The translations under genes were made by a program, and so were the position numbers. Below, one piece after another: positions 10,409 through 38,088 of a DNA stretch of 44,332 nt. Source of the DNA: an uncultured Lachnotalea sp. (GTDB taxonomy: Bacteria > Bacillota > Clostridia > Lachnospirales > Lachnospiraceae); assembly GCA_947066815.1 (NCBI GenBank), contig CAMSZT010000028.1, forward strand, positions 1 to 44,332, written 5' to 3'. The notes beneath the pieces are model-generated. The model saw nothing but the letters and a program-made list of their open reading frames with translations, did no database searches and was not told where the DNA came from. Numbering within the stretch: position 1 is the stretch's first letter; each line of letters begins with the position of its first letter.

Positions 10409-11284
10409 ATGATTTTAGAGCAGGTTTTAAACGGAGTCATGCTTGGCATGGTCTACGCGCTGATCGCAGTGGGATATTCGCTGGTGTTTGGTATCCTGAA
10501 GCTTCTGAACATGGCCCACGGTTCCATCTATGCCTTCGGGGCCCACATGGCGCTGTTCATCGTATCCATGCATTTCGGACTTCTTCCGGCCTTCCTCTTT
10601 GCCATTTTGACGACGGGGATCATCTCGGTCCTTATGGACCGGATCATCCTGGCGCCGCTTAGGGCAAAGAACGCGCCGAATATTACGGCTTTAATCTCCG
10701 TCATGGGTGTTTCCTATATTATCCAGAACATGATGATGATCATTTTCGACAGCACGAAGAAGACGTTTCCGAAGCTTTTTGACTTCGGAAACGTGACCTT
10801 CCTCGGTGTCACTCTTACAAGCACGCAGATCGCGATGTTCCTCATCGCCCTGGCTTTCCTGGTGCTGCTCACCGTGGTGGTAAACTATACCAAAGTGGGC
10901 CTGGCCATGCGGGCCTCCAGGGAAAATGCCAAGGCGGCCAACATGATGGGCATCGACGTGCGGCGGATCGTGACTTTCACATTCTTCATCAGCGGCATGT
11001 GCGCGGCAGTGGCCGGCGTGCTGGTTTCCGGATATTATCAGATGGTATACAGCACCATGGGGACAGAAGCGGGCTTAAAGGGCTTTTCCGCGGCAGTGCT
11101 CGGGGGGATCGGCGTCCTCCACGGCTCCGTGGTGGGAGGCATCATCATTGGTGTGGCCGAGGCCCTGGCGGTGACTTACCTGGGAGGAAGCTTCCGGAGC
11201 GCCACTGCGTATATTGTGTTGTTTATTGTACTTCTCATCAGGCCTTCGGGACTGTTCGGCAAGGACAATATTGTGAAGGTGTAA
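10409..11284 (+). CDS. LivH-type ABC permease
   Basis: This is an inner-membrane permease subunit of the Liv-type importer, 291 residues with about eight hydrophobic segments. The N-terminus MILEQVLNGVMLGMVYALIAVGYSLVFGILKLLNMAHG is the LivH hallmark, and the region GLAMRASRENAKAANMMGID contains the cytoplasmic coupling helix that contacts the ATPases. GAGGTGACG lies before the ATG. It is cotranscribed with the binding protein 34 bp upstream and pairs with the LivM-type permease that follows. Confidence 0.94.
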   Translation: MILEQVLNGVMLGMVYALIAVGYSLVFGILKLLNMAHGSIYAFGAHMALFIVSMHFGLLPAFLFAILTTGIISVLMDRIILAPLRAKNAPNITALISVMGVSYIIQNMMMIIFDSTKKTFPKLFDFGNVTFLGVTLTSTQIAMFLIALAFLVLLTVVVNYTKVGLAMRASRENAKAANMMGIDVRRIVTFTFFISGMCAAVAGVLVSGYYQMVYSTMGTEAGLKGFSAAVLGGIGVLHGSVVGGIIIGVAEALAVTYLGGSFRSATAYIVLFIVLLIRPSGLFGKDNIVKV

Positions 11285-11296
11285 AGGAGACTGACC

Positions 11297-12343
11297 ATGG
11301 GAAAATTAAGTTCTGTTTATGATTCGTTCGTGGATTTCATCCTTAAGCATAAAAAGATTGTCCTCCCGGTCTTCCTGGTCCTTTTGGCGGTTGTCCCCCT
11401 GGTGATCAAGAGCCAGTATGTGATCCGGGTGTTCTGCCTGATCGGCATTTATTGTATCCTGACCCTGAGCCTGAACCTGATCGCCGGCTATATGGGACAG
11501 TCTTCCATGGGGCATGCGGCCCTCTATATGATGGGAGCTTACTTTTCAGGACTCTTAGGGGCAAAGCTCGGCTGGCCCTTTTGGATCACGCTGGTGTTCG
11601 GGATCCTGGGCGGGGCTCTGGGCGGCCTGATCTTAGGGTTTGCCACCATGAAGCTTTCGGCCGGATATCTCTCGGTCATCACCCTGGCCTTCGGCGAGGT
11701 GGTGGAGATGGTGGTGTTAAACTGGAATTCCGTGACCAATGGGCCTTTGGGCGTTCGGGGCATCCCCCGTCCCAATCTGTTTGGCTGGGAACTGACCCCC
11801 ACCAACGGCGGGTTTTACTGGCTGATGTTAGTGCTGGTCATCGTGGCGGTGTTAGTGAGCATGTGCGTAGTCAATTCCAAATTCGGAAGGGCCGTGCGGG
11901 CCATCAAGGAGGATGAGCTGGCGGCGAAACTGATGGGGGTCCACACGGCGGCCTACAAGGTGCAGACCATCGTGCTCTCCGGGGCCATGGCGGGGATGGC
12001 GGGAGCCTTCTACGCTTCCATGAACCGCTATATCGACGCGGCCACCTTCAGCTTTGACATCTCCATGACGATCCTCTGTATCGTGATCTTCGGCGGGATG
12101 GGCTCCATCCCCGGTATGATCGTGGGATCTGCCCTGCTGATCTCCTTCCCGGAGGTGCTTAGGTCTCTGGCGGATTACCGGTTCGTGGTCTACGGGCTGC
12201 TTTTGATCCTGATGATGCGGTTCCGTCCCCAGGGCCTTTTGGGGGGCCTTAGCAGGCGGCCTTATAAGCTGCCGGCGGGAGTTTCGAGGCCGGGAAAGCC
12301 GGAGGACGGCGGCGGTACAGAAGAAGGGAAGAAGGTGAGTTAG
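11297..12343 (+). CDS. LivM-type ABC permease
   Basis: Second permease of the Liv-type importer, 348 residues. After a basic N-terminus the segment LSLNLIAGYMGQSSMGHAAL identifies LivM. The coupling segment FGRAVRAIKEDELAAKLMGV and the conserved GGMGSIPG follow. The C-terminal ~25 residues are a hydrophilic tail (KPEDGGGTEEGKK) not needed for the fold. AAAGGAGACTGACC precedes the ATG. The next gene starts directly after the stop codon (1343 style abutment at 12343/12344), indicating tight translational linkage to the LivG-type ATPase. Confidence 0.94.
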   Translation: MGKLSSVYDSFVDFILKHKKIVLPVFLVLLAVVPLVIKSQYVIRVFCLIGIYCILTLSLNLIAGYMGQSSMGHAALYMMGAYFSGLLGAKLGWPFWITLVFGILGGALGGLILGFATMKLSAGYLSVITLAFGEVVEMVVLNWNSVTNGPLGVRGIPRPNLFGWELTPTNGGFYWLMLVLVIVAVLVSMCVVNSKFGRAVRAIKEDELAAKLMGVHTAAYKVQTIVLSGAMAGMAGAFYASMNRYIDAATFSFDISMTILCIVIFGGMGSIPGMIVGSALLISFPEVLRSLADYRFVVYGLLLILMMRFRPQGLLGGLSRRPYKLPAGVSRPGKPEDGGGTEEGKKVS

Positions 12344-24228: not shown

Positions 24229-24761
24229 TTGAATCAATTCACCGAATTTATGAAGGACGACTGGGACAAGATCGTCTCCGTGAATCTGGAAGGCGTGTTT
24301 CACGGCACTCAGACCGCCGCGAACTATATGAAACAGACCGGCGGAGGGGTGATCCTGAACGCTTCCAGCTTTGCTTCCCTGATCCCTCATGCCAACGGTG
24401 TGATCTACGCGGCGACGAAAGCGGCCGTATCCGGCATGACCAGGAGCACGGCGGCTGCCCTGGCACCTTGGGGGATCCGCGTGGTCGGTTACATCCCCGG
24501 CATGATCCAGACGGAGATCAGCGCTGATTTTATCGATGCCTACCGGGAGAAATTTACAAAAGATATCTCCCTTGGAAGGATCGGGGTCCCGGAGGATCTC
24601 GCCAAACCGATCGTGTTCCTTTCTTCTGAATGCGCGGGATATATTTCCGGATGCGACATTCAGATCAGCGGGGGGGGGGATTCGCGGCGCAGGATTGTTC
24701 CATGAGCTGGCGCATGAAGGCGGGTACGGAAACCTATCGAAAGGAGGGGGAGACGCCATGA
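24229..24761 (+). pseudogene. short-chain dehydrogenase, 5'-truncated and frameshifted at a G10 tract
   Basis: The C-terminal two thirds of an SDR oxidoreductase. WDKIVSVNLEGVFHGTQ, the catalytic Ser in NASSFASL and the YxxxK pair in VIYAATKAA are present, but the N-terminal NAD-binding TGxxxGIG half is missing. A run of ten Gs (24670-24679) shifts the frame so that translation ends at 24705. With nine Gs the product would continue SGGGFAAQDCSMSW and end at TGA 24759-24761, overlapping the next start by ATGA. This restored coupling indicates that nine Gs was the ancestral state. Confidence 0.75.
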
Positions 24762-25534
24762 AAAAGATCCTTGTCTCGGCTTCTCATTTTGACACTCTGT
24801 GCCGGGAAGCGTGGAACTATCTGGAAGAGAATGGCTATGAGATCATTTTTGATTCAAAGAAGGAGTTCCCGGGCTGTACGACGGAAGAACTGCGGACACG
24901 GAACGACCTCGGCGAGATTGTCGGAGCCCTGATCGGGCTTGACGATTATCACGATGAGGAAAAATTCAGATTGCTGCCGGGCCTCAGGGTCATCGCGAAA
25001 TTTGGCGTCGGAGTTGACAATATCGATCTTGGCCTGTGCACGAAGTACGGGATAAAAGCCGTCAATGCGCCCGGACAGAATTCCAACGCGGTTGCGGAGC
25101 TTACCATAGGCATGATCGTCGATCTCCTCCGCCAGGTCACGTTTCTCCACAAGGCCATGACGGAAGGCAGGTGGCCTCGTCTGATCGGAAGTGAGATCAA
25201 AGGGAAGACGGTGGGCCTTCTTGGTTTCGGCGCGATCGCGAGACTGGTCGCAAAGATGCTGACAGGGTTTGACTGTCAGGTCACTGCTTATGACCTGTAT
25301 CCGGATGCGGAAGCGGCGAGGGAGCTTGGCGTTACGCTTACGACCTGGGAGGAGGTGGTCACGGCCAGCGATATCGTCAGTATCCACATCCCGGCGACTG
25401 CTGAGACTTATCATATGTTTAATGGGGAGACGATCGTTTCCATGAAAGACGGAGCCTGCCTCATCAACTGCGCGAGGGGAGCGCTGATCGATCTGGACGC
25501 GCTGGCCGATGCCCTGCTTTCCGGAAATCCGGTC
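24758..25534 (+). pseudogene. D-isomer 2-hydroxyacid dehydrogenase, 3'-truncated
   Basis: NAD-dependent hydroxyacid dehydrogenase of the phosphoglycerate dehydrogenase type. Visible are FGVGVDNIDLGLCTKYGI, NAVAELTIGMIVDLLR with the first catalytic region, the NAD loop LLGFGAIARLVAKML, and INCARGALIDLDALADALLSG. Homology stops at about residue 258, before the conserved LDVxxxEP segment and the catalytic His, so about 55 residues are lost. The frame runs on with unrelated sequence to 25594. AAAGGAGGGGG precedes the ATG. With the SDR before it, it forms a piece of about 1.3 kb cut from another catabolic operon and truncated at both ends. Confidence 0.8.
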
Positions 25535-25650
25535 TGTCTGCACCTGTGCGGTGGAAATATTTTATTCTGTCTTCGTCAGGAAACAGCCATTTGAAGCAGA
25601 CGGATGGAAACCTTCAAACGTACAGGTGTTTTTTACTATATATAGGAAGA

Positions 25651-25726: not shown

Positions 25727-25755
25727 TTGACAAACGTTCCCTCAGATAGTACAAT
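25727..25755 (+). promoter_or_regulatory. consensus promoter of the M60 peptidase gene
   Basis: TTGACA (25727-25732), a 17-bp spacer, then TACAAT (25750-25755). Predicted start is near 25762, giving a leader of about 97 bases. No obvious operator is seen. Confidence 0.8.
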
Positions 25756-25858
25756 TTACATACTCACTTGTTTTTGAGGGGATTGTTTTACTAAATTTTA
25801 CCGGCTCTGTGACGGATTTTCATCTGTGCCGGAAGAATAAAACAGGAGGATGGAAGGT

Positions 25859-28800
25859 ATGAAGCGGGTTTTGGCATGTCTGCTTTCCCTGGTTCTCATG
25901 GCCCTGCCCTGTGTGCAGGCTTATGGGGCGGGGGCCGGGCTGGAAAGCTCCCGGGAAACGGCGGAGAGTTCTGCGCCGGAGACGAAAGGGACGGAGAGTG
26001 TTCCGCCGGAGACGGATGAGACAGAGGAAACGGAGACGGAGAGTGCTTCGCCGGAGACGGGGGAGAGCGGGACGGAGACTGTTTCGCCGGAGACGGGCGA
26101 AGCGGAGACGGAGGAGCTTCCTTCGGAAACGCGGGAGCCGGAGTCGGAAGCCGCTTTAGACGGCGGGGAACAGAGAGCGGTCCCGTATGACCCGAAGGAG
26201 AGCGGCCAGGTCCGCGTGGACATCTGCGAGGGTCTGATCTTGTGGGGGGAGACGGCGTTTGCGGTCTCTCTGACGGGAGCGGACGGACAGACCAGGACGA
26301 AGACGGCGGTGCTCCCGGCATCTTTGGGGGACGGCCGTCCGCAGGAGGTTTCGGCAGTGTTCGAGGGGCTTTCGGAGGGGAGTTATGCGCTCCGGATCGA
26401 AGCCCCCGGTTTTGCTGTCCATGAACAGGAGATTGCCGTCAGGGGCTGGGCTTCGGTGCTGGAGTTTTCTACCGGTTATCGAAACGGCTATGATTACGGG
26501 ACGAAGTTCCATCCCGGGGTCCTGCTTGCCGGGGACGTGGACGGAGACGGGCTGGTCGGCAAAAAGGATCGGGAGGCCCTCGTGGACGCACTGGATGCGC
26601 TCAGATCCGGGGGAAGCGTGCCGGACGGCCTGGTCACGGACTTAAACCGGGACGGTCAGACCGATCTGACGGACCTGGAGGTGTTTGCGAAATGTTATCT
26701 GCCGGAGGGCGGAACGGACAGCTATGGGGACACCATGCTGGTCCCGGCTTCGGCCATCACGGCGAGATGCAAGGCGGGGACGAAGCTCACGGGGAATCTC
26801 TCTGCCCTGCTCACGGGGGAGGAGTCCGTGACTCTGGCGGGGGGAGGTCCGATCTCTGCGGGCAGCCCCGTCTCCCTGGAGTTTGAGTTTTCCGAGAAGG
26901 GCGAGTTTCCCGTGGAGGGGATCCTGATCGGCGGTGCGGCGGAGAATCCCATCAGCCAGATGGAGGTCGCCGTGGACTATGAGGCGGAGGACGGGTCAGA
27001 GCAGAGTTTTTCCGTGCCTGTGGCGGAGGGGGTGGACTTCCTCCTTGCCAGGGAGAGCGTGCAGGTGAGCCGGGACGGAAGCGGGACCATCTGCATCAAC
27101 CTGGGTTCCCAGATCGCGGTGAAGCGGGTGACCATCACCATCACGGGGATGAAGAATAACAACAACCTGGCGGAGATCTCCAAGGTGGAATTTGTAAACG
27201 ACATGGAAAAGCGGATCCCGGAGCCTAAGATGGACGTTCCGGAAAATCTTTCCGCAAAGGCGGGAAATAAATCCTTCACGGCTTCCTGGAGCCCCTGTGT
27301 CAACGTGACGGGCTATGAGGTCCTGGTGGAGAGCGAGGGCATGGCGGAAAGCCGGTTCGTGCAGGGGAACAGCCTGGCGGTCTCTTCCCTGAAGGAGGAA
27401 AAGCTGGTCAACGGCCAGGAATACACGGTGAGGGTCCGGGCCACGAACGGCTCCTGGAGGAGCGGCTACGGCTCTCCGGTGACGGTGGTCCCGAAGCCGG
27501 GAGGAAAGCCGGACGCCCCGGACGGGGTGAGCGCCTTGGGGAAATACAAGAGCATCGACGTGTCCTGGAAGGACATGGAGGACACGGATTCCTACAATCT
27601 CTATTACCGGGTTTCCGGCACGGATGCTTATGAGACGGTCAAAGAGATCGAGGGGAACCGGACGACGATCTCCGATTTGGAGAACAAGACGAAGTATGAG
27701 CTTTACGTGACCGGCGTCAATGAGTTCGGGGAGAGCGGACCCTCTCTCACGGCCTCTGCGACGACGGAGGACCCGGACCCGGCCGTCATGCCGAAGTTCG
27801 GTCTGTTAAATACCGGGAAGGAGGGGGAGGCCGGCGCCCACGTCGCAACCGCTTCCATCAAACAGGGGAGCATGCAGGAGAGCCCTCTGGACACGGTTTC
27901 CGGCACGGCCTGGGGCACGGTGGATAAGGATCCCGGTTCCTATTATTCCTGCGGGACCTGGGATACCGGCGGCTATAACGCCATGGGTGGAAACCACGGC
28001 CTGTTCTATGAGTTTGACCAGGAGTACAAGATCCAGTATTTCGCATTCCAGGAGCCGGCGGTCCAGGGGACGGGCTACGGTTATGCGAGAGTCCGCTGGT
28101 GGGACGGGAACGGGACGGCTTCGGAGGCGAGCTGCCAGGTCCAGAGGAAGACGGACGCCGGGGGACGGGTCTATTACCGGGTCAGGATCCCGCAGGCGAT
28201 CACGGCAAAGCGGATCCAGATCGGCCTTGCCAGATATGTGGCCAGCGGTACCGTCACGGTCTCGGAGATCTATTTCTACCATTATAATTCCCTGGAGGAC
28301 GACATTTTCGCCCTCTACACGGACGATCTGCACACGGTCCTCAGGGACGACGTGACCCAGGGGACCATCGACGACCTCCGGGCGAGGATCAACACGCCGG
28401 ATCCGGACTGCGGGGAATATCATCCTGACCGGGAAGCCCTGGAGCGGGAGTTAAAGACGGCGGAGGACATTTTAAATTCCAGGCTGACGGTGCCTGTCGA
28501 GGTACATAGCCAGATCACGACCAACGATGCGAATCTCGGCTTCGGGGGCTTAAATGCGTGGCAGCCGCTTGGCGTGACGGCGGCGGCCGGGGAGGAGATC
28601 ACGGTCTACGTGGGGCATCCCTCCAAGAGGACGGGGGATTCCACCAACGTGCAGCTGGTGGCGACCCAGTACCATGCGGAGTCCGGCTCCATGTTCCGGC
28701 AGGTGGCGAACCTGAAGATCGGCAGGAACGACGTTACCGTTCCGAAGCTCTGGTCCGTGGATGCGGAGTCCGGCGGCGCCCTGTACGTCCAGTACACGGG

Positions 28801-31261
28801 GAGCAATGCCGACGACCGGTATGCGGTGCGGGTGAGCGGCGGAGCGGCGGTGCCGGTCCTTGACCTGTACCAGGTGGAAGACGGCGCAGAGCGGCAGAAG
28901 CGGGCGGAAGCCTATGTGAAGGCCCTGGATTCCTATGTGGCAGATATGGAGGCCTCCCACGGGACGCTTCATAAGAACTCCGACAACAAAACGGTCCAGT
29001 ATGACTATCAGCCTGCAAACTGCATTTTGGGCGCTTCCGACATCCTGTCGGACACCATGCTGTTCTCCCTTCCGACGCCCCAGATCCTTACCGGGCTTGG
29101 GAGCGGGACCGTTTCCGACCGGGCCGCAAAGCTTCTGACCTCCGTGGGCGCCATGGAGTCGATGATGGATCTGTTCTATCAGCACAAGGGGCTCAACGAG
29201 GCGGCCACAGTCACCCTGTCGGACGGCAAGGTCGTAAAGGATACCAAAAACAGTTATCCGTCCAGGCACTTGAACATCCGGTACCAGCGGATGTTTGCGG
29301 GGGCCTTCATGTACGCCTCCGGCAACCACATCGGCATCGAGTGGAATGAGACGAAGGGCATGGTAAACTGTGGTTCCCTCCAGGCGGACGGGGACGGAAA
29401 ATACAAGAGCGGCAACTATTTCGGATGGGGCATCGCCCACGAGATCGGCCACTGCATCAATCAGGGGACTTACGCCATTGCGGAGGTCACCAACAACTAC
29501 TTTGCGGTGCTGGCTCAGGCGAAGGATACCAACAACAGCGTCCGCTTTAAATACGAGGAAGTTTACAAGAAGGTGACTTCGGAGACGAAGGGCCGGGCCG
29601 CCAACGTGTTTACGGCCCTTGGCATGTACTGGCAGCTCCATCTGGCCTACGATCAGGGCTACAACTTTAAAACCTATGCGGATCCGGCAAAACAGTTTGA
29701 CAATCTGTTCTTTGCCAGAGTGGATTCCTACGCCAGGGGCGGAAAGACGGCTCCTGCGCCGAAAGGCGTGGCCTTCAAACTGTCGGGGGATCGGGATCAG
29801 GATCTGATGCGGCTTTCCTGTGCGGCGGCCGGGAAGGACCTGCTGGAATTTTTCGAGCGGTGGGGCATGACGCCGAACGACGACACCATCGCCTATGCGG
29901 GGCAGTTTGAGAAGGAGACCAGGGCCATCTACTATGGGAATGACGAGGCCCGCGTCTACCGGCTCCAGGGAGGAACGAGCAGTCTGGATCCTTCCGGTAA
30001 AACCCAGGCGGTGGGGGAAGGAACGACGGCGGTGATCGACAAGACGAGGGCCAACCAGGTGAATCTGACGCTGGCGGCGGCATCCTCCATTCCGGCCGCC
30101 GACGTGCTGGGCTACGAGATCGTGCGGTGCGTGACCTCCGGCGGAAAGACGGAGAAATCCCTGGTGGGCTTTGCCACGGACGGGACTTTTGAGGATTCCA
30201 TTACCACCATGAACAACCGGGTGGTGACCTACGAGGTGACGCTGGTCGACAAGTACCTGAACCGGTCGGCGGTGAGGACGCTGGATCCCCTGAAGATCGA
30301 ACACAGGGGAAATATCGCGAAGGACGGCTGGACGCTCACCACAAACGGACTGACCGCCACAAATGTGGAAGCGTCGGCTCCGGCGGATGAAGAGGATCAA
30401 GAAGATACCTGCGGCCCCGTGGCAGAAGCGCCGATCATGAAAGCGGCGGATAACGATCCGGCCACGGTTTACACGGGAAAGGTCGGGGCCGGCGCAGAGG
30501 TCGCCGTGGACTTCCATAAGACCCTGACGGTGGCCGGCATCCAGTATACCGCGGGCGCGGGAACGGCCATTGCGGATTACAGCGTGTCGGTGCTGGGGAC
30601 GGACGGCCAGTGGAAAGAGGCGGCGTCCGGAACCTTCGGAAGCGGCAATGGGGAGACGGTCTACTTTGCAAGAGAGGGGAATGTGGCGTATCATGACGCT
30701 TCGGCCCTGAAGCTTTCCATCCGGGGCCAGAGTGGAATGGAGATTTCCATCGGCGAGCTCGACGTGCTGGGTGTCACCGGGGACAACGTGGATTTCTACC
30801 GGACAGAGGACGGCATGCCGGCGGTCGGGAAGCTCACGGCGGATTATCCATACGGAGACCGGGCGGAGGACGTGATCCCGGCGGGTTCCGTGATCTTTAC
30901 CGGGACTTACAAGGGAAATCCCGCCTACAACGTGGTGCTTCTCTATGACCAGGACGGAAACATCCTCGGCGGCACGGATGCGGACGGGAGCCTGAAGGCG
31001 TATCAGACCATCCTGGCGCCTGAGACAGATCAGGACCAGCTTGAGGACGTGTCGGACGGAACCTGGATCTACTGGGTGGAACCGGAAGACTTGGACGGAC
31101 TCTCCGGCGTCACGAAGGTGCGGGCGGAGCTCTACCGGGTGGACAATGCTTTGACCAACGAGGGCCAGAGGATGGTCAGCGATTCCTTCTTTGAGACTTA
31201 TCCGGGGGTGGAAAACCTGCCGGACATCACCCTTGGCGGTGGAGCGGCCGGCGGAAACTAA
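25859..31261 (+). CDS. secreted dockerin-bearing M60-like zinc metallopeptidase
   Basis: A 1800-residue exported protein. In order: signal peptide (1 to ~23, ending AYGA); a Thr/Glu/Ser/Pro linker with SPETGE repeats (~30-100); a beta-rich segment; a dockerin with two perfect calcium loops, DVDGDGLVGKKD (226-237) and DLNRDGQTDLTD (261-272); a beta domain; two fibronectin-III-like domains (~455-640); a discoidin-like domain (~655-790); an M60 region with HEIGH at 1194-1198 and the distal Glu ten residues on at 1209, matching the M60 HExxH(8-28)E motif; and a C-terminal discoidin-like (CBM32-type) domain (~1480-1650) plus a last beta domain. M60 enzymes cleave glycosylated mucin-type proteins. 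It has no C-terminal anchor of its own; the dockerin presumably docks it on the protein encoded next. ATG 25859 lies 9 bases after AGGAGG. Confidence 0.9.
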   Translation: MKRVLACLLSLVLMALPCVQAYGAGAGLESSRETAESSAPETKGTESVPPETDETEETETESASPETGESGTETVSPETGEAETEELPSETREPESEAALDGGEQRAVPYDPKESGQVRVDICEGLILWGETAFAVSLTGADGQTRTKTAVLPASLGDGRPQEVSAVFEGLSEGSYALRIEAPGFAVHEQEIAVRGWASVLEFSTGYRNGYDYGTKFHPGVLLAGDVDGDGLVGKKDREALVDALDALRSGGSVPDGLVTDLNRDGQTDLTDLEVFAKCYLPEGGTDSYGDTMLVPASAITARCKAGTKLTGNLSALLTGEESVTLAGGGPISAGSPVSLEFEFSEKGEFPVEGILIGGAAENPISQMEVAVDYEAEDGSEQSFSVPVAEGVDFLLARESVQVSRDGSGTICINLGSQIAVKRVTITITGMKNNNNLAEISKVEFVNDMEKRIPEPKMDVPENLSAKAGNKSFTASWSPCVNVTGYEVLVESEGMAESRFVQGNSLAVSSLKEEKLVNGQEYTVRVRATNGSWRSGYGSPVTVVPKPGGKPDAPDGVSALGKYKSIDVSWKDMEDTDSYNLYYRVSGTDAYETVKEIEGNRTTISDLENKTKYELYVTGVNEFGESGPSLTASATTEDPDPAVMPKFGLLNTGKEGEAGAHVATASIKQGSMQESPLDTVSGTAWGTVDKDPGSYYSCGTWDTGGYNAMGGNHGLFYEFDQEYKIQYFAFQEPAVQGTGYGYARVRWWDGNGTASEASCQVQRKTDAGGRVYYRVRIPQAITAKRIQIGLARYVASGTVTVSEIYFYHYNSLEDDIFALYTDDLHTVLRDDVTQGTIDDLRARINTPDPDCGEYHPDREALERELKTAEDILNSRLTVPVEVHSQITTNDANLGFGGLNAWQPLGVTAAAGEEITVYVGHPSKRTGDSTNVQLVATQYHAESGSMFRQVANLKIGRNDVTVPKLWSVDAESGGALYVQYTGSNADDRYAVRVSGGAAVPVLDLYQVEDGAERQKRAEAYVKALDSYVADMEASHGTLHKNSDNKTVQYDYQPANCILGASDILSDTMLFSLPTPQILTGLGSGTVSDRAAKLLTSVGAMESMMDLFYQHKGLNEAATVTLSDGKVVKDTKNSYPSRHLNIRYQRMFAGAFMYASGNHIGIEWNETKGMVNCGSLQADGDGKYKSGNYFGWGIAHEIGHCINQGTYAIAEVTNNYFAVLAQAKDTNNSVRFKYEEVYKKVTSETKGRAANVFTALGMYWQLHLAYDQGYNFKTYADPAKQFDNLFFARVDSYARGGKTAPAPKGVAFKLSGDRDQDLMRLSCAAAGKDLLEFFERWGMTPNDDTIAYAGQFEKETRAIYYGNDEARVYRLQGGTSSLDPSGKTQAVGEGTTAVIDKTRANQVNLTLAAASSIPAADVLGYEIVRCVTSGGKTEKSLVGFATDGTFEDSITTMNNRVVTYEVTLVDKYLNRSAVRTLDPLKIEHRGNIAKDGWTLTTNGLTATNVEASAPADEEDQEDTCGPVAEAPIMKAADNDPATVYTGKVGAGAEVAVDFHKTLTVAGIQYTAGAGTAIADYSVSVLGTDGQWKEAASGTFGSGNGETVYFAREGNVAYHDASALKLSIRGQSGMEISIGELDVLGVTGDNVDFYRTEDGMPAVGKLTADYPYGDRAEDVIPAGSVIFTGTYKGNPAYNVVLLYDQDGNILGGTDADGSLKAYQTILAPETDQDQLEDVSDGTWIYWVEPEDLDGLSGVTKVRAELYRVDNALTNEGQRMVSDSFFETYPGVENLPDITLGGGAAGGN

Positions 31262-31280
31262 GGCGGCAAAGGAGTAAGAG

Positions 31281-32258
31281 ATGAAAGGTTATTTACGGAT
31301 ATTGCGTGAGATCAGGGGGCGGGCGGTGAAAACCGCCGCCGTCCTCCTGGCGGTGCTTGTATGCGCCCAGGCCCTGCCGCTTGTCAGCCTTGCGGCAAAG
31401 GGGGCGGTGGAATTTGAAGAGGGGCAGGGAAAGGCCCTGGTGTCCATTGTTCTGGAGGGAGACGAGGGGGCGAAGAAGGGCGCCACCTCCCTGGAGCTCG
31501 GGCTAAAGGTCACCTCGGGGGAGATGGCGGAGCTTGCGGTCTCCTTTGCCTTTGACGAGGGCTTGAGCGGAGGGCGGGTGGCGGAATTCCGCTATCATCC
31601 GGACACGGGGATCCTGAATCTGTACGTGGCCGGGGAGACTCCGCTCTTTGCGGAGGATTCGGCAGCCCTGACCCTTGGAACTGCGACGGTGGAGGGCGCC
31701 GTGGCCGGCATCAACGTGGTGGAAAACTCCCTGAAGCTTTCCGGAAGCGGCATGGCGATCGAGAATGTTACCATTCAGGCCCTGGCACAGGACGTGCCGC
31801 TGATCGATCAGCCCGCAGACGGGACGGTGGACCGCTCCAGGCTTGAGGAGATCCTTAGGAAGGCGGCGGAATACAGGGAAGCCGATTATACGCCGGAGAG
31901 CTATGCCATCCTGGCAGAAGCCATAAAAGCGGCGGAAGCGGTCCTCGGCAGGGCAGATGCGACCCAGGAGGAGATCGACGAGGCGGTCCTTCTGGTGGAA
32001 AACGCCATCGGCTCCCTGGTGGAGAAGGCTTCGGCGAGTGGAGGGAATCAGCCGTCACCTGGCGAAAACCAGGTCCCTTCCGGCGGGAAGGGCGGAGGAA
32101 CCGGGACCACGTTAAAAAAGACGGATGACACGGACACCGGCGACAAGACCAACGTGCTTCCCTATGTGCTGGCGGCAATCGCGAGTGTCGCCGTGCTGGG
32201 AGGGATCGCATTCTCCCAGAGGAAGAAGTTTGGAAAAAAACGAAAATCAGAAAAGTAG
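31281..32258 (+). CDS. membrane-anchored protein with cohesin-like domain and FIVAR repeat
   Basis: A 325-residue surface protein with a signal peptide (1 to ~39, ending SLAA). It has a beta-sandwich of about 130 residues with cohesin-like character (SLELGLKVTSGEMAELAVSF, TGILNLYVAGETPLFAED, then LTLGTATVEG). A FIVAR three-helix repeat follows (~184-247: YTPESYAILAEAIKAAEAVL, QEEIDEAVLLVENAI), then a Gly/Pro/Ser linker and a C-terminal hydrophobic helix NVLPYVLAAIASVAVLGGIAF with a basic tail. No canonical LPXTG is present (only TDTGDKTN), so it may simply be membrane-held. It starts 19 bp after the dockerin peptidase with AAAGGAGTAAGAG, in the same transcript. The cohesin call is by pattern and by pairing with the dockerin; the FIVAR and anchor calls are firmer. 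Confidence 0.72.
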   Translation: MKGYLRILREIRGRAVKTAAVLLAVLVCAQALPLVSLAAKGAVEFEEGQGKALVSIVLEGDEGAKKGATSLELGLKVTSGEMAELAVSFAFDEGLSGGRVAEFRYHPDTGILNLYVAGETPLFAEDSAALTLGTATVEGAVAGINVVENSLKLSGSGMAIENVTIQALAQDVPLIDQPADGTVDRSRLEEILRKAAEYREADYTPESYAILAEAIKAAEAVLGRADATQEEIDEAVLLVENAIGSLVEKASASGGNQPSPGENQVPSGGKGGGTGTTLKKTDDTDTGDKTNVLPYVLAAIASVAVLGGIAFSQRKKFGKKRKSEK

Positions 32259-32504: not shown

Positions 32505-33836
32505 ATGAGACGAGAGTATTTGGAACAGGACGTGTACGAGGCCCTGCAGGAGCGGCTGAAATTTATTTTTGAGGAGTTTGAGAACATTTATCTCTCCTTT
32601 TCCGGGGGAAAGGACAGCGGATTGCTTTTGAACCTGGTTTTGGATTTTCAGAAGAAGCATTACCCGGAGAAAAGGATCGGAGTTTTCCATCAGGATTTCG
32701 AGGCCCAGTACACGGTGACGACGGAGTACGTGGAACGGACTTTCGAGCGGATCAAGGACGAGGTGGAGCCCTACTGGGTATGTCTGCCCATGGCCACCAG
32801 GACGGCCCTCAGCAGCTATGAGATGTACTGGTATCCCTGGGATGACACGAAGCAGGAGATCTGGGTCAGGCCCATGCCGGACAGGGACTACGTGATCAAT
32901 CTGGAAAACAATCCCATGACGACCTACCGCTACCGGATGCACCAGGAGGATCTGGCCAAACAGTTTGGCCGGTGGTACGGCGAAGCGCACGGAAACGGGA
33001 GGACCGTCTGCCTGCTTGGAATGCGGGCGGACGAATCCCTGCAGCGTTACAGCGGCTTTCTCAATAAAAAGTACGGCTATAAGGGGGAGTGCTGGATCAG
33101 CCGGCAGTTTAAGGGGCTGTGGTGTGCTTCTCCCATGTTCGACTGGTCTGCGGAGGACGTCTGGCACGCAAACTATCTGTTCGGATACGATTATAATCAC
33201 TTGTACGATCTGTACTACATGGCGGGGCTCAAGGTTTCCCAGATGCGGGTGGCCTCCCCCTTCAACGACTATTCCAAGGACGCATTGAATCTTTACCGGG
33301 TCATCGACCCGGAGATATGGGTGAAGCTGGTGGGCCGGGTTCAGGGGGCCAATTTCGCCTGTATTTACGGAAGGACCAAGGCCATGGGCTACCGGAACGT
33401 GACCCTGCCGGAGGGCCATACCTGGAAATCCTATACCATGTTCCTGCTGGCGACACTTCCGAAACGCTTGCGGGAAAATTATACGAAGAAGTTCAACTCT
33501 TCCATTGAGTTTTGGTATAAGACGGGGGGCGGACTGGACGAGGAGACCATTCAGGAGCTTCTGGACCACGGTTACAAGATCCGCAGGAACGGAGTTTCCA
33601 ATTATACTCTGAATAAAAAATCCAGAATCGTGTTTCGTCAGAGGATACCGGACGATACCGACGACATCCGTTCCACCAAGGACATCCCAAGCTGGAAGCG
33701 GATGTGTTATTGCATTTTGAAAAATGATCATATCTGCCGTTTTATGGGATTTGGCATGACGAGACAGCAGCAGAAGCGGATCGACATGATCAGGCGGAAG
33801 TACAAGAGTGTGGAGGAGATGGATTATGGAGTATAA
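32505..33836 (+). CDS. IbrA-like PAPS-reductase-family protein (DUF3440)
   Basis: A 443-residue cytosolic protein. The PP-loop SFSGGKDSG at about residues 31-39 marks the adenine-nucleotide alpha-hydrolase / PAPS-reductase fold. The family blocks GVFHQDFEAQYTVTTEYV, WYPWDDTKQEIWVRPMP, LLGMRADESLQRYS, MFDWSAEDVWHANYLFGYDYN and FACIYGRTKAMGYRN match the DUF3440 proteins typified by IbrA. IbrA, with IbrB, activates immunoglobulin-binding surface-protein genes in an E. coli strain; its chemistry is unknown. TAGGTGA precedes the ATG. The 3' end overlaps the IbrB-like gene by 11 bp. It is transcribed separately from the surface locus upstream. Confidence 0.88.
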   Translation: MRREYLEQDVYEALQERLKFIFEEFENIYLSFSGGKDSGLLLNLVLDFQKKHYPEKRIGVFHQDFEAQYTVTTEYVERTFERIKDEVEPYWVCLPMATRTALSSYEMYWYPWDDTKQEIWVRPMPDRDYVINLENNPMTTYRYRMHQEDLAKQFGRWYGEAHGNGRTVCLLGMRADESLQRYSGFLNKKYGYKGECWISRQFKGLWCASPMFDWSAEDVWHANYLFGYDYNHLYDLYYMAGLKVSQMRVASPFNDYSKDALNLYRVIDPEIWVKLVGRVQGANFACIYGRTKAMGYRNVTLPEGHTWKSYTMFLLATLPKRLRENYTKKFNSSIEFWYKTGGGLDEETIQELLDHGYKIRRNGVSNYTLNKKSRIVFRQRIPDDTDDIRSTKDIPSWKRMCYCILKNDHICRFMGFGMTRQQQKRIDMIRRKYKSVEEMDYGV

Positions 33837-34368
33837 GAGTCCCGCATATCATGTGATTCCGGTTCCCATCGAACAGATCCGGCCCAATACCTACAATCCG
33901 AACACGGTGGCGCCGCCGGAGATGAAACTGCTCTACGACAGCATCAGGGCGGACGGCTACACCATGCCCATTGTCTGCTACTACAGCCAGATGGCGGAGT
34001 CCTACATCATTGTGGACGGGTTCCACCGCTACCGGGTCATGCTGGAGCATCCGGACATCTACGAGAGGGAGCACGGCATGCTGCCGGTGTCCGTGATCGA
34101 CAAGCCCATCGATCAGAGGATGGCGAGCACCATCCGCCATAACCGGGCAAGGGGCAATCACGACGTGGACCTGATGAGCAACATTGTGAAGGAGCTTCAC
34201 GAGCTGGGCCGTTCCGACGCCTGGATTTCCAGGCACCTGGGCATGGACAGGGACGAGATCCTCCGGTTAAAGCAGATCACCGGACTTGCGGCGCTGTTCA
34301 GGGACGTGAAATTTGGGAAGGCCTGGAGACCGGTGGGGACGGAAGAGATGGACGACGATGATGAATAA
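33826..34368 (+). CDS. IbrB-like ParB/Srx-domain protein
   Basis: A 180-residue ParB N-terminal-domain protein without plasmid-partition context. IPVPIEQIRPNTYNPN starts the fold, and IIVDGFHRYRVM corresponds to the nucleotide-binding GxxR motif of ParB proteins. RNRARGNHD-type sequence and a helix-turn-helix-like end (SDAWISRHLGMDRDEILRLKQITG) follow. The ATG at 33826 follows TGGAGGAG by 7 bases and lies inside the end of the IbrA-like gene, giving an 11-bp overlap and coupled translation. This IbrA-IbrB pairing is conserved in proteobacteria; ParB-like proteins can bind or hydrolyse CTP or act as nucleases, so a nucleotide-dependent partner role is inferred. Confidence 0.86.
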   Translation: MEYKSPAYHVIPVPIEQIRPNTYNPNTVAPPEMKLLYDSIRADGYTMPIVCYYSQMAESYIIVDGFHRYRVMLEHPDIYEREHGMLPVSVIDKPIDQRMASTIRHNRARGNHDVDLMSNIVKELHELGRSDAWISRHLGMDRDEILRLKQITGLAALFRDVKFGKAWRPVGTEEMDDDDE

Positions 34369-34624: not shown

Positions 34625-35641
34625 ATGTTCAATTTCAATGTACCCAGGTATGAGAAGGTAGTCAGTGACGCGATTGCGCTCCGCCCCCAGATTGAGGCAG
34701 CGGTGGACAAGATCTGTGAAGAGGGATATTCCAATATCTTCTTCATCGGCTGCGGCGGAACCTACGCCCATTCTCTGCCGATCATGTACTGGCTGGACAC
34801 GGAATCTGCGAAGGTCGAGGCCCATTCCGTGATTGCGGCAGAGTTCATGGCCATGGGGCACAAGGCATTCTCCAAGGATTCCGTATGCGTGTTCTCCACC
34901 CGCTCCGGCAACACGAAGGAGATCGTGGCCGCTGCGAAGTTCTGCAAGGAGGCGGGCGCGCGGACCCTGGTCTATGTCTCCAATGACAACACTCCCGTAT
35001 GTGAATACGCAGATTACAAATTCTTCAGCTTTGCGGAGGACGACTGCCTGTGCGAGGCGATCTACACCTACATGTACACCGTGGTCGGCAGGTTCCTCAA
35101 GAACGCTGGGGAGTTTGAGGATTACGAGGCCTTCATGGGCGAGTATGCGAAAATCGTGCCTTACCTGTTAAAGGGCAAGGAGCTCTACGAGGACCGGTGC
35201 GCAAAGATTGCCGCAGATTTAAAGGACGTGGATTACCACATGGTGGTCGGCTCCGGCATGCTCTGGGGCGAGGCCTACGACTATGCGATGTGCATCCTGG
35301 AGGAGATGCAGTGGATCAAGACCAAGTCCATCCATGCGGCAGAGTTCTTCCACGGGACCATCGAGCTGTGCGAGGAGGACACCTCCATCTTCCTGTTCTA
35401 CGGCGAGGATGAGACCAGGCCGCTCATGGACCGGGTGGACAATTTCGTGACCAAGGTCTCCAAGGTGATCAACAAGTTCGACACGAAGGAAGTGGAGCTT
35501 CCCTTCAGCAAGGCGCTGTACCGGAAGATCGTGTCCCCCATGGTCATGTACGCAATCACCGAGAGGCTTTCCTGCCACATTGAGAAGGAGCGCAACCATC
35601 CGCTGACGACCAGAAGATACTATCGCCAGATGGAATATTAA
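34625..35641 (+). CDS. SIS-domain deglycase, FrlB-like
   Basis: A cytosolic sugar-isomerase (SIS) domain protein, 338 residues, like FrlB, which splits fructoselysine 6-phosphate into glucose 6-phosphate and lysine. First SIS domain: NIFFIGCGGTYAHSLPI and the phosphate-binding loop in VFSTRSGNTKEI. Second domain: VVGSGMLWGEAYDYA and AAEFFHGTIELCEED, whose glutamate corresponds to the catalytic Glu of FrlB (GEFRHGPLEI there). The end TRRYYRQMEY matches FrlB's RRYYGGLVEY style. AAGGAGGAACAAC precedes the ATG. It is the first gene of the operon, with FrlD- and FrlC-like genes downstream supporting an Amadori-product substrate. The amino acid attached to the sugar cannot be told. Confidence 0.87.
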   Translation: MFNFNVPRYEKVVSDAIALRPQIEAAVDKICEEGYSNIFFIGCGGTYAHSLPIMYWLDTESAKVEAHSVIAAEFMAMGHKAFSKDSVCVFSTRSGNTKEIVAAAKFCKEAGARTLVYVSNDNTPVCEYADYKFFSFAEDDCLCEAIYTYMYTVVGRFLKNAGEFEDYEAFMGEYAKIVPYLLKGKELYEDRCAKIAADLKDVDYHMVVGSGMLWGEAYDYAMCILEEMQWIKTKSIHAAEFFHGTIELCEEDTSIFLFYGEDETRPLMDRVDNFVTKVSKVINKFDTKEVELPFSKALYRKIVSPMVMYAITERLSCHIEKERNHPLTTRRYYRQMEY

Positions 35642-35664
35642 TTTTAGATCAAGCGGGGTGACAT

Positions 35665-36582
35665 ATGGCAAGGCTAGTTGGAATCGGCGACAATGTCGTG
35701 GACCTGAATTATACCACCGGGATCGCATATCCGGGAGGAAACTGTGTGAACGTGGCGGTCTTTGGAAGGATGCTTTCCCACGAGACCGCCTACGTGGGGA
35801 AGATTGCGAAGGACCGCTGGGGAGAAGTGATTCTCCATGCGGTGCGGGAAATGGGAGTCGACGTCTCCCGGTGCGAGATCGAGGAGGGGGAGACCGGGCG
35901 CTGCGGCATCCACCTGACGGAGGGCGACCGGAAGATCGTGGAGGAAAACGATGCGGGGCTGGTGAAGGAAAGGCCCCTTCGGGTCACGGAAGACCTCCTT
36001 ACATACATCCGGACCTTCGACATCGCCCATTCCAGCTGCTACAGCCATATCGAAGGTGAGTTAAAAAAGATAAAGGATGCGGGAATTCCCCTGCTCTACG
36101 ATTTCTCCGACGAGTGGACGGCGAAGACCCTGAGGGAGATCTGCCCGGACATCACGGTTGCGTTCTTCTCCGGCAAAGAACTCCTGGAGGAGGAGCTCAA
36201 GGGGTATCTTTCGCAGTGCGTGGACGAGTACGGCTGCGAGCTGGCGGTCACGACCATCGGCGGACGGGGAGCCATCGTCTATAACGGGAGACGTTTCTAC
36301 ACGAAGAGACCCTACAATTACGGCGGGTCCGTGGTGGACACGACCGGGGCGGGGGATTCCTGGATCACGGCGTTTATCTGTACGTTTTTTGACAACAGAA
36401 ATTATCTGGAGCTGCTTAGGGGTAACTCGGAAGAGCATTTTGTGAGGGAAGAGGACATTCACGACATGGAGGATTGCCTGATTGAGCACTGTATGTGCCA
36501 GGGGAATCTTCTGGCCAGGAAGAACTGCATGGTGAAGGGCTCTTTTGGATACGGGGTGACATTTGCAGAACCGGAAATGTAA
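35665..36582 (+). CDS. PfkB-family kinase, FrlD-like fructosamine 6-kinase
   Basis: A ribokinase/PfkB kinase, 305 residues. The N-terminus (LVGIGDNVVDLNYTTGIAYP, GGNCVNVAVFGRM) closely follows FrlD. The C-terminal catalytic motif DTTGAGDSW includes the base aspartate and the anion hole, and YDFSDEWTAKTL recalls the AFDFSDKWDSP segment of FrlD. It would phosphorylate the imported Amadori compound at C6 for the SIS deglycase encoded 23 bp upstream. The C-terminus is some 40 residues longer than in E. coli FrlD. GCGGGGTGAC is the ribosome site. Confidence 0.87.
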   Translation: MARLVGIGDNVVDLNYTTGIAYPGGNCVNVAVFGRMLSHETAYVGKIAKDRWGEVILHAVREMGVDVSRCEIEEGETGRCGIHLTEGDRKIVEENDAGLVKERPLRVTEDLLTYIRTFDIAHSSCYSHIEGELKKIKDAGIPLLYDFSDEWTAKTLREICPDITVAFFSGKELLEEELKGYLSQCVDEYGCELAVTTIGGRGAIVYNGRRFYTKRPYNYGGSVVDTTGAGDSWITAFICTFFDNRNYLELLRGNSEEHFVREEDIHDMEDCLIEHCMCQGNLLARKNCMVKGSFGYGVTFAEPEM

Positions 36583-36597
36583 GAGGGTGGTGAAAGC

Positions 36598-38088
<1,491 letters not shown>

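Follow-up and report, generated by a model that had tools for sequence, protein, structure and literature searches.

Two adjacent genes for a dockerin-bearing M60-type metallopeptidase and a predicted membrane anchor with a cohesin-like domain were found in a window of 44,332 nucleotides, the whole stretch of DNA analysed here, which lies on contig CAMSZT010000028.1 (C28) of the 3.44 Mb genome of an uncultured Lachnotalea sp. (Lachnospiraceae; assembly GCA_947066815.1). The pair probably constitutes a dedicated two-protein display system, in which the dockerin of the peptidase is predicted to bind the cohesin-like domain of the anchor, since the predicted fold and the dockerin agree with the strictly linked position of the two genes, with their fusions and with the exchangeable tails of the anchors. 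Its parts are ordinary, and their arrangement is unusual and conserved. An initial annotation, made from the letters of this one locus, had proposed such two-gene docking; the proposal is supported by the cohesin-like fold model, by PF00404 at the family level and by the conserved pairing, from which we infer the docking itself. The features concerned are as follows.

25727..25755, + strand: promoter-like TTGACA-17-TACAAT, 5' of the M60 gene (11/12 consensus positions; consensus match alone)
25859..31261, + strand: M60-type metallopeptidase gene (gene 1), 1800 aa, predicted secreted, without recognisable anchor (hydrophobic N-terminus; alternative ATG at 25850)
26201..26479, + strand: Ig/transthyretin-like domain directly before the dockerin, in an X-module-like position
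26516..26719, + strand: dockerin, with calcium loops at 26534-26569 and 26639-26674
27236..27487, + strand: fibronectin type III (fn3) domain, best stretch (PF00041, 59.8 bits; two stretches match)
29306..29866, + strand: M60 catalytic region (PF13402), with the zinc motif HEIGH at 29438-29452
31281..32258, + strand: anchor gene (gene 2), 325 aa
31398..31781, + strand: predicted cohesin-fold domain of the anchor, residues 40-167 (AlphaFold2 (AF2) model m50887d7c2f70; Foldseek and VIA matches to cohesins)
31860..32018, + strand: FIVAR-like repeat, residues 194-246 (PF07554, 27.2 bits)
32154..32210, + strand: putative C-terminal membrane helix, then a basic tail (hydropathy alone)

Linkage of the anchor to the M60 peptidase

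The one-to-one pairing, which had been guessed from a single locus, turned out to be a conserved rule. An M60 homologue was present at all 37 loci where the anchor N-domain scored at least 19 bits, adjacent on the same strand at 33 and fused at 4; these loci include a near-copy of the window in a metagenome-assembled genome (L006; M60 protein 99.6% and anchor 100% identical) and a contig edge that holds just the end of the M60 gene (L108). Chance adjacency is ruled out by this linkage. At L134, where the domain reached 14.7 bits, no M60 homologue was found.

The first anchor search, in 200 family genomes, gave mostly FIVAR matches together with some to the N-domain, and 9 of the 11 N-domain places fetched had an M60 gene beside or fused to them; the two without it were L068, which is a classical cohesin, and L069. 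A profile built from 12 anchor N-domains (A1) then matched 30 of 397 family genomes, or 27 of 334 genera, and 7 of 391 class-level genomes, the window's own included. In the family genomes 31 of 32 A1 places stood beside or were fused to M60, the exception being the weakest (G098:C24, 17.6 bits). Apart from the window's own, three of the six class-level places were accompanied by M60 (G652, fused; G688; G689), and the three without M60 beside them were the weakest (G520, G740 and G411; E 0.0015-0.009; flanks L132-L135). No relative was found in three scans of viral contigs.

The converse test started from the peptidase. PF13402 finds 22 M60 genes in 200 family genomes, 15 of them in genomes with an A1 match. 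In three of the other seven cases (G179, G192, G029) the M60 protein has a dockerin and a divergent anchor is encoded immediately after it, the anchors scoring 11.5 bits at E 0.0019, and 59 and 63 bits with an extended profile. In the last four (G100, G110, G054, G140) a pattern search showed no dockerin loop, and the flanks covered gave no anchor match better than E 0.5. The 15 and the three together thus have an anchor partner in 18/18 cases, against 0/4 for the last group (Fisher 1.4e-4), and dockerin loops were visible in 17 of the 18 paired proteins, that of G158 having its N-terminus cut off. Because the four lacking both traits are other M60 subfamilies, this comparison shows that dockerin and anchor partner travel with an M60 subfamily rather than being independent traits.

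A second M60-anchor pair was observed in one relative, G281 (L120:3946-9294; L119 lies in the same genome), where the peptidase lacks HExxH while dockerin and anchor are kept; the first pair of that genome is intact.

The M60 peptidase and its dockerin

The M60 protein comprises, in order, a hydrophobic N-terminus, an acidic Thr/Glu/Pro-rich stretch, the Ig-like domain, the dockerin, fn3 domains and the M60 catalytic region. Its start at 25859 is likelier than that at 25850 because a ribosome site, AGGAGG, occupies 25844-25849. The assignment to M60-type metallopeptidases holds: PF13402 matches residues 1150-1336 with 44.4 bits against a Pfam cut-off of 25.8, HEIGH begins at residue 1194 as part of a HExxH zinc motif with the downstream E (HEIGHCINQGTYAIAE), and PDB entries 7jfs and 5kdj are matched. 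The product would be an O-glycoprotein (mucin-type) peptidase. It was also annotated as having no anchor of its own, in line with the lack of both LPXTG and a C-terminal membrane helix in the protein (its last 150 residues reach a hydropathy of at most 0.59 over 19 residues). A sortase-anchored peptidase was considered and ruled out, the sortase motif being absent in 38/38 M60 rows.

The dockerin loops are DVDGDGLVGKKD (residues 226-237) and DLNRDGQTDLTD (residues 261-272). Two tandem loops are present as first described, and "textbook" overstates loop 1, which has G at position 9. The window protein is borderline for PF00404, with 16.3 bits over the whole protein, 22.3 for the segment and 23.4 with neighbouring stretches, against a cut-off of 22.9. 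At the family level the same profile reaches E≤0.01 in 34 of 37 homologous segments, and a dockerin family profile searched against PDB finds solved dockerins (best E 1.8e-9), both cellulosomal ones and the dockerin segment of a Clostridium perfringens hyaluronidase (2jnk/2ozn). Both calcium loops are intact in 35 of 37 relatives, the window included, and one loop is seen in the other two (L071, L109); L070 is cut by a contig end in this alignment, and the M60 gene of G042 falls on two contigs, with both loops present in the N-terminal piece when this is read separately. Judged by this conservation in relatives, the segment matches and the solved structures found, the dockerin is real despite its borderline Pfam score.

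For the model of the M60 N-terminus, rows 2-5 of the Foldseek results were the X-dockerin chains 4wi0_B, 4u3s_B, 5k39_B and 5g5d_B, loosely matched (TMq 0.26-0.31; root-mean-square deviation 8.9-10.8), and rank 1 was an unrelated human protein. X-dockerin chains were absent from the VIA list, which held just folds resembling the Ig-like portion; this is no evidence against likeness to X-dockerins, because the model is poor in its dockerin part. Another protein of the window's own genome (L002; contig C30, about 11190-11321) ends in the dockerin-like pair DVRGDGVMGLGQL / DINGDGTIGLGDL, so that "self-contained" may go too far as a description of the two genes.

The anchor and its predicted cohesin fold

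The ATG of gene 2 follows the stop of gene 1 after 19 bp, as annotated, with a ribosome site of its own, AAAGGAG, at 31268-31274. As no + strand promoter-like site is found in this gap, the two genes are likely to be co-transcribed.

The AF2 model of the anchor beta domain has nine strands (pLDDT 69, pTM 0.66), and the sandwich superposes on solved cohesins in both Foldseek and VIA. The top Foldseek rows are type II cohesins, the closest VIA matches are type I cohesins, and C. perfringens cohesins are among the fold matches of both. The beta-sandwich proposed at the outset is accordingly modelled as cohesin-like rather than as another fold, with moderate model confidence. A match to the cohesin family PF00963, looked for as a check on that proposal, did not appear: the anchor has none at E≤1, and the family is not among the 17 matched by 35 anchors at E≤0.001. 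The likeness of the domain to cohesins is seen in its predicted structure and in none of the sequence searches.

The remainder of the anchor would serve attachment. A FIVAR repeat had been claimed, and a FIVAR-like match is indeed present (E 6e-6), slightly below the Pfam cut-off of 29.2 bits. The proposed membrane anchoring agrees with a C-terminal hydrophobic segment (mean Kyte-Doolittle 2.19 over 19 residues) that probably spans the membrane and is followed by the basic tail RKKFGKKRKSEK. The anchor contains one predicted cohesin-fold domain, and its profile finds one place in the own genome; no scaffoldin with several cohesins was found there with PF00963 or the anchor profile, which a divergent scaffoldin could escape.

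Fusions and exchangeable tails

In four relatives (L070, L071, L113, L129) the cohesin-like domain lies towards the C-terminus of the M60 protein itself. The socket is followed by a C-terminal dockerin in L070 and L071, and L113 has a dockerin-like end by eye. Two genomes of these three loci were included in the PF00963 search (G098, G158) and both hold classical cohesins, one in G098 being on a membrane-tailed protein of 332 aa. Where socket and enzyme are fused with a second dockerin, such a protein may clamp onto its own chain, or copies of it may join head to tail as mucinase fibres.

A membrane-helix-like segment lies in the last 80 residues of 17 of 35 anchors, and LPKTG accompanies it in one of these. 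By Pfam (E≤0.001), 9 anchors contain FIVAR, up to 7 contain choline-binding repeats, 1 has CWB2 and 1 matches the LPXTG family. Across species the socket thus appears to be the constant part and the attachment the exchangeable part. A constant head with changing attachments is what would be expected of a display socket.

Predicted docking and alternative explanations

According to the preferred display mechanism, both proteins would be made from one transcript and then exported. The dockerin, folded with calcium, would bind the cohesin-like domain on its sheet of strands 8-3-6-5. A stalk would be formed by the FIVAR-like repeat and linker, and the membrane helix would hold the complex at the surface, so that the O-glycoprotein (mucin-type) peptidase would work at the cell. 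Other species would carry this socket on other tails, with a sortase motif or with choline-binding or CWB2 repeats.

Strands 8-3-6-5 form the dockerin-binding face of known cohesins. In the anchor model their outward residues show higher conservation than the outward residues of the other sheet (p=0.007), and their inward residues do not differ in this way (p=0.37); inward and outward were assigned by hydropathy, with strands 5, 7 and 9 ambiguous. Of 126 four-strand sets, 5, 8-3-6-5 included, reach that conservation.

Several observations weigh against dedicated docking. The anchor model was built on 3 sequences, its five versions have pLDDT 57-69, and no Foldseek E-value was below 0.001. Profile-profile comparison (hhalign) of the anchor domain with 24 cohesins (30 loci less 6 removed because of length or stops) yielded a probability of 3.4%, below the 5.5% that the same cohesin profile gave for the M60 pre-dockerin domain; the anchor against eight other M60-protein segments scored lower still (best 1.4%). 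The anchor-domain profile brought up no chain of note in PDB. When all strand residues are counted, the conservation difference weakens to p=0.03. In a mirror-tree analysis of 32 pairs, which gave no specific dockerin-anchor signal, the correlation with the anchor was lowest, of seven M60 segments, for the dockerin (r=0.63) and highest for the pre-dockerin domain (0.74). In the three fusions with a readable N-terminus the enzyme retains one dockerin loop or more, with the socket in the same chain, which a simple tether does not predict. Finally, about 10 of the 35 anchors, a count that assumes that the tail groups do not overlap, lack both a C-terminal membrane helix and any recognised wall-binding module and end, for example, in fn3/Big-like repeats.

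The mirror-tree ranking and the loops retained in fused forms would suit a contact made differently, in which the anchor binds the enzyme through another face or another part, such as the Ig-like domain before the dockerin, and the dockerin serves another partner, for instance a different cohesin or surface protein; classical cohesins (PF00963) indeed occur in 83 of 200 family genomes. We consider this unlikely: PF00963 has no match at E≤10 in the window's own genome, so no classical dockerin partner was found there, and dockerin and cohesin-fold domain co-occur throughout. The X module makes up a single unit with the dockerin in type II complexes of known structure, so that this contact and the dockerin contact may be one and the same.

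The failure of sequence profiles to recognise a cohesin, together with the tails without a recognised attachment, could instead point to a carbohydrate- or mucin-binding module on a related jelly-roll, a fold common to cohesins and some carbohydrate-binding modules, which would make the anchor a substrate adhesin working alongside the peptidase. CBM3, however, occupies one row among the best 50 of Foldseek (4c8x, prob 0.54) and none among the best 50 of VIA, and a binding module leaves unexplained why other M60 types lack both dockerin loop and partner; this explanation is improbable. Least probable is a conserved operon whose products make no physical contact. Adjacency alone is no proof of contact, and the mirror-tree result is in keeping with such an operon, but the four fusions, and a dockerin on one side that corresponds to a predicted cohesin fold on the other, speak against it.

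Comparison with known systems

In type II cellulosome systems the dockerin is carried by a scaffoldin loaded with enzymes. The type II cohesin/X-dockerin attachment of Clostridium thermocellum and Acetivibrio cellulolyticus (PDB 2b59, 4u3s, 5g5d) resembles the present pair in its surface-bound cohesin-fold socket and in a plug formed by a dockerin after an Ig-like module. Here, in contrast, a single enzyme carries the dockerin itself, close to its N-terminus, and the socket comes from the next gene, with a sequence outside PF00963. In C. perfringens, contacts between cohesin (X82) and FIVAR-dockerin join glycan-active enzymes (PDB 2ozn, 2vo8, 2w1n, 2jh2). They are likewise non-cellulosomal, made by single modules and set in a host-glycan context, whereas both cohesin and dockerin are there on enzymes, with FIVAR beside the dockerin, and here the cohesin-like domain and FIVAR are on a non-catalytic anchor.

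The C. perfringens contacts are partly retold in PMC12997984, which describes the mucinolysome of Limousia. The mucinolysome is alike in its cohesin-dockerin display of mucin-active enzymes, peptidases included, by a gut Firmicute with an anchoring scaffoldin, and differs in its multi-cohesin scaffoldins with many dockerin enzymes; the words 'M60', 'one-to-one', 'adjacent' and 'operon' are absent from the main text of that paper. The M60/PF13402 peptidases and O-glycopeptidases surveyed in PMC3267712 share the catalytic family and are mostly exported, with many binding modules. Dockerins are noted there in 2 of 415 M60 proteins, Clostridium and Bacillus sequences are marked '?-anchor' in a figure, and 'cohesin' is absent from the main text. 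According to PMC2914790, a Butyrivibrio has secreted polysaccharide-degrading enzymes without dockerins and no scaffoldins. The initial annotation regarded the one-to-one M60/anchor pair as undescribed; in agreement, no M60 peptidase with a dedicated cohesin-like anchor is described among the literature matches listed, judged mostly by titles and abstract openings, with subscription papers largely outside the search.

Wider binary pairs and neighbouring genes

The 83 family genomes with classical cohesins were counted at E≤0.001, and 71 exceed the cut-off. From this PF00963 list 21 classical-cohesin loci were picked, mostly frames below 800 aa and L068 included, and at 13 of them an adjacent same-strand gene has a dockerin loop (L068, L196-L203, L208, L210, L211, L214). 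At L068 itself, a protein made up of cohesin, FIVAR and membrane tail neighbours a large one with dockerin loops. At the sampled loci, a loop occurs in 13 of 35 adjacent open reading frames against 4 of 150 non-adjacent ones. Because so many sampled loci adjoin a dockerin-loop gene, one-to-one cohesin/dockerin pairs appear, from their gene neighbourhoods, to be more widespread, and the M60 pair would be one branch of them, with its own socket family. No description of such a layer of binary pairs is among the literature matches listed.

Upstream of the M60 gene, window positions 24229-25594 hold possible gene remnants: a short-chain dehydrogenase, in which about 87 profile positions at the start are missing, and a 2-hydroxyacid dehydrogenase that is shortened at the C-terminus. 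Downstream of the anchor, a DUF3440/PAPS-reductase-like gene is followed by a ParB_N-like gene just below the cut-off (32505-34368), an order which we take to be the layout of IbrA/IbrB. Positions 34625-38085 carry genes for a SIS-domain protein and a PfkB kinase, similar to fructoselysine-6-phosphate deglycase and to fructoselysine kinase, and after these a gene for a monosaccharide ABC-transporter ATPase; the best matches here are below the NCBIfam cut-offs.

Significance

To our knowledge, how Gram-positive bacteria without cellulosomes retain mucin-cutting enzymes at their surface is largely open. If the display system is confirmed, a conserved two-gene plug-and-socket would explain this retention for one peptidase family, would predict activity on the cell and not free in mucus, and would provide a small new cohesin-dockerin pair for protein engineering. 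It would likewise mean that cohesin-dockerin logic is widespread outside cellulosomes, scattered and one-to-one, with its socket side missed by profile searches. As a more tentative extension, somewhat less likely than not, the anchor domain might found a cohesin family of its own, which Pfam does not recognise and which has evolved together with a single enzyme family to display mucinases on Lachnospiraceae by a private plug and socket. The M60 pair might then belong to a broader layer of binary cohesin-dockerin gene pairs in these bacteria.
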